A DNA stretch of 64,000 nucleotides from NCBI GenBank assembly GCA_900318145.1, contig ONJM01000010.1, positions 24,252 to 88,251 on the forward strand, in the 5' to 3' direction. The notes under the pieces were generated by a model. That model saw only the letters and a program-made list of their open reading frames with translations. It was not told the DNA's origin and searched no databases. Origin of the DNA: an uncultured Eubacteriales bacterium (lineage in GTDB: Bacteria > Bacillota > Clostridia > Christensenellales > Aristaeellaceae). The position numbers and the translations under genes were made by a program. Positions 9,832 through 12,740 of the stretch are shown piece after piece (position 1 is the first letter of the stretch; every line of letters begins with the position of its first letter).

Positions 9832-10764
9832 TTACTCCGTGAACAGGGGCGTGGAATAGTACCGGTCGCCGCTGTCCGGCAGCAGGGCAACGATAACCTT
9901 GCCCTTGTTTTCCGGCCGTTTCGCCAGTTCGATGGCGCCGTAGAGGGCAGCGCCGGAGGAGATACCCACGGAGATACCTTCCTTTTTCGCAAGCAGCTTC
10001 GCGGTTTCAAAAGCGTTTTCCGTTGTGGCGGTGAACACTTCGTCATAGACTTTGGTGTTCAGCACGTCTGGCACAAAACCGGCGCCGATGCCCTGGATCT
10101 TGTGGGCGCCGGCGTGGCCTTCGGACAGCACGGGGGAGTCCTTGGGCTCGAGGGCGACGACTTTGATGGCGGGATTCTGCTCCTTCAGGTATTCGCCGGT
10201 GCCGGTGACGGTGCCGCCGGTGCCTACGCCGGCGATGAAGATATCGACTTTGCCGTCGGTGTCCTTCCAGATTTCGGGGCCTGTGGTGGCTTTATGGACA
10301 GCGGGGTTTGCCGGATTCACAAACTGCCCGGGGATGAAGCCGCCGGGAATTTCCTTTGCCAGCTCCTCTGCTTTTGCGATGGCGCCTTTCATGCCCTTTG
10401 AGCCTTCCGTCAGCACCAGCTCGGCGCCGTAGGCTTTCAGGATATTGCGGCGCTCCACGCTCATGGTTTCCGGCATGGTCAGGATAATGCGGTAGCCTTT
10501 GGCGGCGGCGATGGCGGCCAGGCCGATGCCCGTGTTGCCGCTGGTAGGCTCGATGATTACGGACCCTTCTTTCAGGAGGCCTTTTTCTTCCGCATCCTCG
10601 ATCATGGCTTTGGCAATCCGGTCCTTGACGCTGCCGGCCGGATTGAAGTACTCCAGCTTCACCAGCACGGTGGCTTCCAGGCCAAGGGCCTTTTCAATGT
10701 TTGCGACTTCCACGAGGGGAGTATTTCCGATGAGTCCCAGGGTTCCCTTATAGATCTTGGACAT
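9832..10764 (-). CDS. cysK: Cysteine synthase (O-acetylserine sulfhydrylase), PLP enzyme
   Basis: 310 residues. It makes cysteine from O-acetylserine and sulfide. The PLP lysine is Lys47 in NPAGSVKDR. The substrate loop TSGNTG and the PLP phosphate loop [10 protein letters not shown] are present. ATG 10764 follows AGAAGG in a good position. The same frame stays open upstream to 10986, but that stretch covers the promoter, leader peptide and terminator and is not part of the protein. Its own promoter (10970-10998), leader peptide (10851-10937) and hairpin (10810-10830) suggest control by cysteine supply. Confidence 0.96.
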
Positions 10765-10800
10765 AACGCAGCCTTCTTTCTTTTTCAATTTATTCCGGAC

Positions 10801-10830
10801 AAAACAAAACCGGGAGGGTACGCCTCCCGG
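10801..10830 (-). terminator. Terminator/attenuator hairpin in the cysK leader
   Basis: Read on the minus strand, CCGGGAGG (10830-10823) pairs with CCTCCCGG (10817-10810) around a 5-nt loop. The stem is followed at once by UUUUGUUUU (10809-10801). This is a textbook intrinsic terminator, placed 20 nt after the stop of the leader peptide and about 37 nt before the cysK start codon. Such a position makes sense only as a conditional terminator. Confidence 0.88.
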
Positions 10831-10850
10831 GTATTCAGCAATACAGGCAT

Positions 10851-10937
10851 TCAGCAACATCGAACGCCGGCACGCATGAAAACCCCGGGACGCATTATCT
10901 GCATGCGCCGACAGTGCCGCATGATACACCGTGCCAT
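10851..10937 (-). CDS. Cysteine-containing leader peptide upstream of cysK
   Basis: A 28-codon open frame begins [11 protein letters not shown] and ends AGVRCC, then TGA. It has a near-perfect ribosome site AAGGAGG (10953-10947) 9 nt before its ATG and starts about 26 nt after the predicted transcription start. Four of 28 codons are Cys, two of them adjacent at the end (TGT TGC, 10859-10854). A terminator follows 20 nt later. The order promoter, short Cys-rich peptide, terminator, cysteine synthase matches ribosome-mediated attenuation. Cys-rich leader peptides before cysteine genes are known in actinobacteria. I do not know of this one being described. Confidence 0.8.
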
Positions 10938-10969
10938 CCTGCGCGCCTCCTTCCGTTCGTGTTGCGGCT

Positions 10970-10998
10970 ATTCTAACATCAATCACCTACTATGTCAA
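10970..10998 (-). promoter_or_regulatory. Sigma-A type promoter of cysK
   Basis: On the minus strand TTGACA (10998-10993) and TAGAAT (10975-10970) are separated by exactly 17 nt: a consensus -35 and a 5/6 -10. Transcription would start near 10963, so the 5' leader of cysK is about 200 nt and contains the leader peptide and terminator. Confidence 0.85.
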
Positions 10999-11024
10999 TA
11001 GGCGAATTAAAGATTTCAGGTTTT

Positions 11025-12740
11025 TTATCCTTTGACGTCTTCCGCCTCATCTTCCGGTTCCGCGTAAATCAGGAAAGATTCCATGACATATCCTTCCGCG
11101 GCGTCTGTTTTCACATGCACCCAGCCGGGAATGTCGCAGCTTTCCAGCACGATCAGCTGCTGGTGGCGGTAAAGGCGCATAATGATTTCCGCTCCTGCGG
11201 AGGGCTGCGCCCGGAGGTTCAGCGAACTGTCATCGTCGATATTTTCCACGGAAGCCATACGCGCGCCTTCCGGAAGCTCCCCCGTGACGGGCATCAGGGT
11301 TGGACGCGGCGTCGCGGTGGGTGCCGGGCCGGGAACCCGTGCCAGTACGGGCGGCGGGGTCGGCAGCGCCGCGGGTTCCCCCGCGTACCGCTTCAGCACG
11401 GCGCCGGGATAATAGAAAGAAAGGATATCGCGGAAGGTTTTCTGACCCTCTTTGGCCATCTGCTGGGCGCCGCGCTGGCTCATTCCGACGCCGTGGCCGT
11501 ACCGGCCGGCGGTCAGGGTAAAGGAGCTTTCATCCTCCTGTACGGTGATGATTTCGTTGTTGGCGCCGGAAACGCTGAGGCCCAGGGCGATCACCGTCTC
11601 CGGGAAAAGCTCCAGTGTCACCGTAATGGGCAGTCCTGAAATCAGCTGTGAGATGTCCAGATCCTGTTCTGCCGGTTCCCCGGTTTTTTCCGCGGGTGCG
11701 GCGGGTTCGGAAGCCTGCGCGCCGGCGGGATCCAGCGCAAAGGTGATTTTCATCTTCGTCATAAGGCGGCTGGGAGCCGCGTAGCGGGGAGCGGTCAGCT
11801 CCAGGGAGACCAGCCGGGTAACCCGGAAAGCGTTTTCTTCCGGGATCCCTTGCGCAAACAGGGGATTTGCCAGGGCTGCTTTACGCAGCAGCTTTACGAA
11901 GGCGGCGGAGAGACCGGTCCCGTCCCGGTTCAGGACGCAGGTACGCACGGTGGAAGCCGGGTTTTCCGCGTCCCAGGGGTCCTCCGTGACGGCAAAGCAG
12001 CGGGGAGCTTCGCCGCCCCACACATTTGCGGGGAGCTCTGTCTGTCCGCCGTTGGAAGCGCTGTACCAGGCGGTAATCAGCTTCCCGTCGCAGGTAAGCA
12101 CCAGGCCGGCGGTATCGGTGACCGCGGCCTCGGACTTCGGGGAGCTGGAGCTCAGGCCTTTGAAGACCTGGTCGTTGGTTGTATCCACCACGTCCCAGTC
12201 GGCTTTCGGATTCAGATGGTTCAGCGCATAGGTCCGGGCGCAGACCGCCTGTGATTTCAGAGCTTCCTCCGGAAAACCGTCCCCCATTTCATAGGGAACC
12301 ACGCCCTGCAGATATGTTTCCAGGGGCAGCGTCAGAACCGGGATAATTCCGGTGTCCCCGGCGGAGAGGGAAAGGTCTCCCGGATAAAACCCCGTCTGCA
12401 GGTTGAAGCGGATTCCCGGAACCGTGTTTCCGGAGTCCTGCCGCAGGAAGGACAGGGATTTGCCCATATCTGTGGAAAGGCCGGCAGTATGGAGAATCAG
12501 GTGCCCGTCCTCCAGCAGGATGGCGGCTTTTGTTCCGTCGGCCAGCAGCAGCTCGCTGCCGGAAGCGGAGCGGACCAGATACCGCCCGGTGAAGGTCAGG
12601 TCCGCCCGGTCGGCAATATTCAGGCGGCGCAGCAGCACCCGGATTTCGGATGAGGTTTCGCCTTTTGCCGCGGCGCCGGCCGGAATCAGCGAAAGACAGG
12701 CCAGCAGGCAGGCGAGCAGAAGGCAGAGCAGTCTTTTCAT
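11025..12740 (-). CDS. SpoIID/LytB-domain exported protein with C-terminal SH3-like domain
   Basis: 571 residues with a signal peptide (hydrophobic residues 4-24, AGAAA end). The SpoIID/LytB domain spans roughly residues 120-440: LETYLQGVVPYEMGDGFPEEALKSQAVCARTYAL, interrupted here as two blocks, then ITAWYSASNGGQT and the closing GRYGHGVGMSQRGAQQMA. A Pro/Thr-rich linker (about 465-490) leads to a bacterial SH3-like domain (LNLRAQPSAGAEII...GWVHVKTDAAEGYV). SpoIID is a lytic transglycosylase acting on denuded peptidoglycan during engulfment, but the SH3 extension suggests a general wall enzyme here. It follows rarA after 15 bp on the same strand. Confidence 0.85.
   Translation of the reverse strand: MKRLLCLLLACLLACLSLIPAGAAAKGETSSEIRVLLRRLNIADRADLTFTGRYLVRSASGSELLLADGTKAAILLEDGHLILHTAGLSTDMGKSLSFLRQDSGNTVPGIRFNLQTGFYPGDLSLSAGDTGIIPVLTLPLETYLQGVVPYEMGDGFPEEALKSQAVCARTYALNHLNPKADWDVVDTTNDQVFKGLSSSSPKSEAAVTDTAGLVLTCDGKLITAWYSASNGGQTELPANVWGGEAPRCFAVTEDPWDAENPASTVRTCVLNRDGTGLSAAFVKLLRKAALANPLFAQGIPEENAFRVTRLVSLELTAPRYAAPSRLMTKMKITFALDPAGAQASEPAAPAEKTGEPAEQDLDISQLISGLPITVTLELFPETVIALGLSVSGANNEIITVQEDESSFTLTAGRYGHGVGMSQRGAQQMAKEGQKTFRDILSFYYPGAVLKRYAGEPAALPTPPPVLARVPGPAPTATPRPTLMPVTGELPEGARMASVENIDDDSSLNLRAQPSAGAEIIMRLYRHQQLIVLESCDIPGWVHVKTDAAEGYVMESFLIYAEPEDEAEDVKG

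Follow-up and report, generated by a model that had tools for sequence, protein, structure and literature searches.

The cysK gene in the stretch of DNA analysed here (64,000 nucleotides from an uncultured Eubacteriales bacterium, hereafter the window) is preceded by a leader that probably acts as a cysteine-responsive, ribosome-mediated transcription attenuator and that would be a diverged relative of an apparently undescribed class of leaders in the Clostridia. Cysteine attenuation had been proposed for this one gene in the initial annotation; comparison with relatives supports the proposal and extends it to a whole family of leaders, in which the helix that competes with the terminator (P1) covaries, a Cys codon is conserved and sulfur or transport genes follow in all 73 readable cases. 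The parts themselves, a Shine-Dalgarno (SD)-led open reading frame (ORF) with Cys codons, a terminator and a predicted P1 helix between the leader-coding RNA and the terminator 5' arm, are established at the level of the sequence. Attenuation by the window leader is likely, and less certain than attenuation by the family.

The leader of the window cysK

The promoter, the AAGGAGG, the 28-codon frame with four Cys codons, the 8-bp terminator, the 7-bp alternative pairing and the cysK start all lie where the initial annotation had placed them (Table 1). The leader ORF terminates in TGT-TGC-TGA, and the UCCCGGG within it can form seven base pairs with the CCCGGGA of the terminator 5' arm. The hairpin whose loop carries the last two Cys codons resembles, perhaps by analogy, the P3 helix of the family described below. 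The stop codon of the gene upstream of the leader is at 11025, near the promoter. The cysK frame is itself open upstream as far as a GTG at 10986 (9832-10986, minus strand), crossing the leader in another frame, an extension that is probably mechanical and without meaning.

Table 1. Features of the cysK leader in the window, in the order of transcription
Feature	Position	Strand	Basis or remark
Operator-like imperfect palindrome CCTATTGACATAGTAGG	10986..11002	(-)	read from the sequence; overlaps the -35
Promoter TTGACA-17-TAGAAT	10970..10998	(-)	consensus match at 11 of 12 positions; TG precedes the -10
Shine-Dalgarno AAGGAGG of the leader ORF	10946..10952	(-)	sequence; AGGAGG-like SDs also precede canonical elements
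Leader peptide ORF, ATG...TGA, 28 codons	10851..10937	(-)	ORF translation, shuffle test
Cys codons of the leader ORF	Cys4 10928-10926, Cys9 10913-10911, Cys27 10859-10857, Cys28 10856-10854	(-)	
P1 5' arm UCCCGGG (putative antiterminator), within the leader ORF	10884..10890	(-)	folding; matching position in the canonical family
P3-like hairpin GGCGTTC/GAATGCC	10846..10868	(-)	loop holds the terminal Cys-Cys codons; stop codon between loop and 3' arm
P1 3' arm CCCGGGA	10825..10831	(-)	overlaps the terminator 5' arm, hence mutually exclusive
Intrinsic terminator CCGGGAGG-CGTAC-CCTCCCGG then TTTTGTTTT	10801..10830	(-)	terminator scan; stem 10830-10810 of 8 pairs, 7 of them G-C, loop of 5; TTTTGTTTT reaches 10801
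cysK, cysteine synthase A, 310 aa	9832..10764	(-)	ATG at 10764; TIGR01139 452.6 bits, cut-off 350.95

Among 5000 dinucleotide-preserving shuffles of 10801-10970, which sample non-uniformly, an SD-led ORF with at least four Cys codons arose in 9, and one that in addition ended in Cys-Cys arose in 1. The region 10600-11150 holds two terminator-like sites against 0.7 expected, one of them the cysK leader terminator, and one promoter-like site against 0.5 expected. Over its full length the leader shows no exceptional folding (z -1.47 by single-sequence folding), so that folding of the single sequence is no proof and comparative evidence carries the case. As a test of the switch, single-sequence folding was rejected, the two states not being separated.

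A class of leaders in the Clostridia

When the window leader was used as a DNA query against 45 genus genomes, mostly its promoter segment was recovered, and several of the loci so recovered had other leaders of a common design. This canonical design consists, in order, of the operator-like CCTATTGACATAGTAGG, an AGGAGG-like SD, an ORF with a conserved core and, further downstream, TGCCCGGGAG. The core, TGT(Cys)-CGA-ATG-C-N4-CTCCCGGGCA, lies inside the SD-led ORF and encodes CRM-x-x-SRA, apart from which the leader peptides are highly variable. TGCCCGGGAG forms the 5' arm of an intrinsic terminator and pairs with CTCCCGGGCA to give P1; the conserved Cys codon stands 14 nt ahead of this helix. 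Cys codons near the end of the ORF are optional in the canonical relatives.

The core pattern, with at most two mismatches, is found in 29 of the 45 genus genomes (reversed-pattern control, 0 of 45), and a looser version, again with at most two mismatches, in 58 of 300 genomes of the taxonomic family, some of them by chance (reversed control, 3). At least 119 stretches in GTDB genomes contain the exact pattern, and among the matches listed (80 titles) are Lachnospiraceae, Ruminococcaceae, Oscillospiraceae, Saccharofermentans, Blautia and Anaerovibrio lipolyticus DSM 3074, the last a Negativicute. The exact pattern also occurs in a record titled Eggerthellaceae (L167), yet no in-frame start was found there within 70 nt, and the presence of the element in the Coriobacteriia is for this reason doubtful. 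Whole-genome searches with model R1, the E-values of which are rough, found the element in 31 of 45 genomes of the genus (E up to 1), 49 of 300 of the family (E up to 0.01) and 13 of 391 of the class (E up to 0.001), so that its distribution is patchy. Elsewhere in the genome from which the window comes there are two canonical copies, one before metY and one before the gene for a MetN-like ATPase.

The window copy among cysK leaders

The window leader scores 15 bits with model R1 (E 0.03 in 64 kb). It has TGTCGGCGCATGC...TCCCGGGG, and neither the exact TGTCGAATGC nor the 14-nt spacing; without an in-frame TGTCGAATGC-N4-CTCCCGGGCA and a significant score it is a diverged relative of the CRM-SRA class and not a member. 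Common to the window and the canonical leaders are the operator-like site, the AAGGAGG-led ATG and the Cys codons, and GGAAGGAGGCGCG is identical letter for letter in the window and in locus L270. In three genomes of a sister genus, cysK genes 92-93% identical to that of the window have a canonical element immediately upstream (67-76 bits), which was also found by an independent model search.

As a general feature of cysK within the genus, the leader did not hold up. Of 30 genus loci inspected by eye, 21 are leaderless, with no more than an operator-promoter and a short 5'UTR; in four cysK follows metY, with a canonical element upstream, and in five it has a longer leader. The closest cysK, at locus L017 (94% identical), is preceded by a promoter, an SD, an ORF ending Arg-Cys-stop and a CCGGGAG terminator, in that order. 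Its P1, TCCCGGA:TCCGGGA, differs from the TCCCGGG:CCCGGGA of the window by a compensated change from G-C to A-U. This leader is not predicted to switch, the terminator being formed at 0.73-1.00 with the ribosome at any codon.

It could be argued from the leaderless majority of genus loci, from the divergence of the window copy and from the predicted inertness of L017 that the window leader is a decaying relic, in which the ORF and the terminator are remnants of a canonical attenuator and cysK is governed only by the operator-like site over its promoter. We regard such decay as unlikely: the window retains its terminator, SD, Cys codons and P1 helix, the changes in P1 compensate each other, and an intact terminator deprived of antitermination would leave cysK strongly down. 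Attenuation is still the preferred reading of the window leader, with the operator-like site over the -35 probably providing a second, independent control.

Sites similar to the operator-like palindrome of the window lie ahead of many canonical elements and of many cysK loci among the 30 of the genus. The palindrome at 10986-11002 resembles what we take to be an operator of the Rrf2 type (a regulator of the Rrf2/IscR/CymR kind is suspected). A CCTATTGAC-N4-TAGG-like palindrome over the cysK -35 is also found before leaderless genes that by eye resemble cysteine desulfurases (L012, L040).

Leaders built in other ways also occur before cysK. A second kind in the taxonomic family (L292, L296, L299, L303, L305) has a tiny ORF ending LRPG(L/M/H)CWRC-stop, with MRPG in L299, the end of which directly follows AACCTATTTGAAAGGTAGG-like DNA; no obvious terminator accompanies it, and L295 and L297 have forms close to it. 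Other, differently constructed Cys-rich leader ORFs precede cysK at L279, L301, L304, L314, L316 and L317, some of them with terminators. The cysK leaders of L024 (ORF MSRSRGCMCQ...) and L026 (ORF MSRSRVCMCRR...) have TCCCGGG, no terminator being seen in either, and possibly represent translational control or decay.

Conservation of the pairing and of the reading frame

The canonical elements were recounted as 142 distinct ones, 20 of which occurred in more than one locus, after four hits at contig edges had been dropped. Though the search used the 5' motif alone, TGCCCGGGAG (at most one mismatch) is present 30-220 nt downstream in 139 of them, the partner being missing in L127 (at one of two sites), L132 and L213. 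The three helices counted, P1 (CTCCCGGGCA:TGCCCGGGAG), P2 (approximately ATGGC:GCCAT) and P3 (approximately GGGGCG:CGCCTC), covary in two alignments. The first, A2, comprises 75 of 108 listed elements, hand-picked by a near-exact pattern and the presence of the P1 partner, so that its near-complete P1 pairing is partly a matter of selection; both sides have changed in 12 of 22 pairs, a number attained in 3 of 500 shuffles, and the covariation score was attained in none of 500. The second, A3, has 75 rows fitted to model R1 and was built from 74 chosen loci; one row (L247 minus), an antisense shadow, was kept when pairs were counted and set aside for the counts of Cys positions and downstream genes. 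Both-side changes here affect 15 of 22 pairs, as against none as high in 500 shuffles and 7-12 with the partner strand slid, and 92.8% of the cells are paired, as against 23-53% in the slid versions. Four of the loci in A3 (L270, L271, L273, L276) had been retrieved because they carry cysK, and their sites were also found independently by the model search alone.

Since the shuffles of both alignments ignore kinship among the elements, more weight is to be given to the slid versions and to the several compensated forms of P1, namely GGACA:TGTCC (7 rows), GGGCT:AGCCC, GGGTG:CGCCC and CCAGG:CCTGG. The CCGGGAG strand belongs to both P1 and the terminator, and the two structures exclude each other. 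An intrinsic terminator lies between the leader ORF and the gene in the window as well as in the family, and its exclusive antiterminator is represented by the covarying P1 in the family and by the 7 bp in the window.

The reading frame is conserved to a similar extent. When the best combination of SD and start was chosen for each element in any frame, it proved to be in frame with the TGT in 140 of the 142 distinct exact-pattern elements and open through the TGT in 139; L101 and L167 are out of frame and L169 has a stop before the TGT. Earlier counts, which overlap, gave an in-frame SD start in 44/44 (L084 probably being a chance hit) and in 119/121, the latter set overlapping that of the genus. 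The distance from start to TGT varies among canonical elements, with the frame kept. Among 74 model-aligned elements, Cys stands directly before CGAATG in 68, one codon earlier in five and two codons earlier in one, and is absent from none. Other positions at which Cys is frequent are codons -1 (83/133), +16 (41/130) and +26 (31/51), and also +8 (45/133), inside the stretch where a ribosome favours the terminator. Loss of the frame or of the Cys codons in related genomes had been named in the initial annotation as evidence that would tell against attenuation; the open SD-led frames and the retention of Cys in 74/74 speak to the contrary for the family, and for the divergent leader of the window itself the comparison yielded a single close counterpart, L017.

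The CGAATGC that follows the Cys codon is conserved at the nucleotide level, synonymous positions included (columns of A2 and A3), and has no evident pairing partner. It would sit in the channel of the ribosome, and neither attenuation nor pairing explains its conservation; a CGAATG:CATTTG helix, considered as the cause, was rejected, being present in metY-type copies and broken in permease-type copies. This unexplained conservation, together with the conserved and covarying arrangement of P1, P2 and P3, is what might be expected of a metabolite-binding riboswitch, with an aptamer that overlaps an ORF by chance. Such an overlap would nevertheless hardly keep the starts in frame over variable distances and the Cys codon in the same place, and no Rfam family matches the window or the loci searched, all of which argues that a riboswitch is very improbable and that the translated leader is the better reading.

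Predicted effect of ribosome position

The folding of the canonical elements was predicted with a ribosome mask covering the stretch from 15 nt before to 12 nt after the first base of the A-site codon (n = 130, four of 134 having been dropped for want of a T-tract or of a terminator helix with 4 or more pairs). When the A site held the conserved Cys codon, the mean pairing probabilities were 0.86 for P1 and 0.21 for the terminator; one codon further on they were 0.68 and 0.43, two codons on 0.17 and 0.80, and from three to eleven codons on about 0.00 and about 0.89. On these values the antiterminator remains intact up to and including the conserved Cys codon, and no further. In 107 of the 130 elements, P1 exceeds 0.5 with the ribosome at the Cys codon and the terminator exceeds 0.5 four codons on. 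P1 also wins without a ribosome (0.77 vs 0.25 for the terminator), so that the repressed state of the family must rest on timing, and the leading ribosome would then be crossing P1 as the terminator is synthesised. Of 124 elements with a ribosome placed at the stop codon, only 53 favour the terminator. The idea that a second cluster of Cys codons is positioned for stalling found no support as a rule for the family, late Cys codons giving a P1 of 0.59 and late non-Cys codons one of 0.60.

For the window, the prediction without a ribosome is 0.60 for the terminator and 0.35 for P1. P1 rises to 0.93, 0.91, 0.84 and 0.89 with the ribosome at Cys4, Cys9, Cys27 and Cys28, respectively, and the terminator reaches 0.79-0.99 with the ribosome at zero-based codons 12-22. 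The non-Cys codons 2-9 likewise give high P1 (0.61-0.93), and the positions that favour P1 in the window are therefore not specific to Cys. Stalling at Cys4, Cys9 or Cys27 gives a P1 of at least 0.52, favoured in all 18 footprint settings, and the predictions for Cys28 and the stop codon flip with the footprint assumed. The initial annotation had proposed folding the leader with a ribosome on the terminal Cys-Cys codons (10854-10859): such a stall favours P1 throughout at Cys27 and in only some settings at Cys28. The difficulty raised there, namely the location of the alternative arm upstream of this stall site, is largely resolved, since the conserved Cys codon of the canonical elements precedes the arm, as do Cys4 and Cys9 in the window.

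Genes downstream of the leaders

The regulatory codons match the pathway downstream, Cys codons preceding cysK in the window and metY, cysK and transporter genes in the relatives. The 73 readable model-aligned elements stand before metY (43), ABC permease or ATPase genes (14), genes for binding proteins (9), cysK (5, of which four come from loci fetched as such) and M20 peptidase genes (2); one further row, besides the antisense L247 minus, has no readable downstream gene. The pattern-based set, readable in 141 of 142 cases, gives metY 87, binding proteins 31, ABC 17, M20 4, cysK-like 1 and other 1. Representative products include an OAH/OAS sulfhydrylase (TIGR01326, above cut-off), an NlpA lipoprotein, a permease of the polar amino-acid type and an M20 protein; the representative ABC ATPase has a NIL domain and scores below the cut-off of the MetN model. 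That the terminator ends a separate small transcript, or that the peptide acts as a free product, with cysK not attenuated in either case, is the least probable explanation, for although the upstream stop codon lies near the promoter and short ORFs may be functional in themselves, promoter, ORF and terminator are all directed into cysK, the same order recurs before the sulfur and transport genes in each of the readable cases, and the peptides vary strongly apart from CRM-SRA.

Relation to known leaders

Attenuation of the trp type employs a leader ORF containing codons for the amino acid of the pathway, a terminator and a mutually exclusive antiterminator, the choice between which is decided by ribosome stalling; without translation, the trp leader terminates. 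The leaders described here share the pathway codons, the terminator and the exclusive antiterminator. They differ in that the antiterminator pairs RNA from within the ORF directly with the terminator 5' arm, and in that the canonical copies are predicted to antiterminate in the absence of a ribosome, whereas the window copy leans to the terminator.

Searches of Rfam 15 gave no family match in the window, in 14 loci or, at E up to 1, in five loci. The T-box model RF00230 is unmatched in the window, and control by a T-box at this site was rejected; T-box matches occur elsewhere in all 45 genus genomes, 34 of them over the cut-off. The leader peptides tried had no match in NCBIfam and no convincing one in Pfam, where one peptide gave two weak hits below threshold. 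No cysteine leader from clostridia was found in the open-licence literature, mostly judged by title and abstract, which makes this a weak sign of absence.

Cysteine leaders are known from other lineages. In mycobacteria and their relatives, polycysteine leaders place Cys codons in a short ORF upstream of sulfur genes (PMC1262725), as is the case here; that lineage is a different one, however, and the available text of the reports describes the leaders in Mycobacterium as lacking conserved terminators, puts the Cys runs near the stop (PMC1262725; PMC13236596 citing Canestrari et al. 2020) and does not mention CRM-SRA. The uORFC-8-2 motif, exclusive to cysS in Rhodobacterales (Alphaproteobacteria) according to the portion of its report that was available, has in common with the present leaders tandem Cys codons, a terminator and proposed ribosome-mediated attenuation (PMC8632094). 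The present leaders, by contrast, are mostly clostridial and precede metY, cysK, transporter and M20 genes, a location before cysS not having been encountered among them. Bacilli have a histidine leader peptide ahead of hisS/hisZ, likewise a rare case of leader-peptide attenuation in the Firmicutes, with a different amino acid and different genes; the authors of the 2010 survey that reported it, in the part available, knew of no leader-peptide systems demonstrated beyond the Proteobacteria and Actinobacteria, apart from the ermC leader (PMC2965389).

Proposed mechanism and significance

When Cys-tRNA is scarce, the ribosome would stall at an upstream Cys codon, which in the window could be Cys4 or Cys9. 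The stalled ribosome would leave P1 free to pair with the terminator 5' arm, and RNA polymerase would read into cysK. With plentiful cysteine, the ribosome would proceed and cover the P1 5' arm during synthesis of the terminator, and transcription would end near 10801.

More broadly, and judging from comparison of sequences, we lean slightly towards the view that these leaders form an undescribed class of cysteine-sensing leader-peptide attenuators spread across several families of Clostridia, Negativicutes and perhaps Coriobacteriia. The single conserved Cys codon would place the front edge of the waiting ribosome against the antiterminator, such that the canonical copies would be ON by default and be turned OFF only once the ribosome passes that codon. 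The CGAATGC in the ribosome channel would add a second function, and the cysK copy of the window would belong to a fast-evolving branch.

If this is true, the class, with its covarying fold and its recurrence ahead of genes for the synthesis and transport of cysteine and methionine, would add a sulfur-sensing switch to the regulation of rumen and gut Clostridia that are hard to culture, and would give a function to short ORFs that have no Pfam or NCBIfam name. It would also supply well-defined elements, including that of the isolate Anaerovibrio lipolyticus DSM 3074, for the study of how the position of the ribosome sets the terminator.
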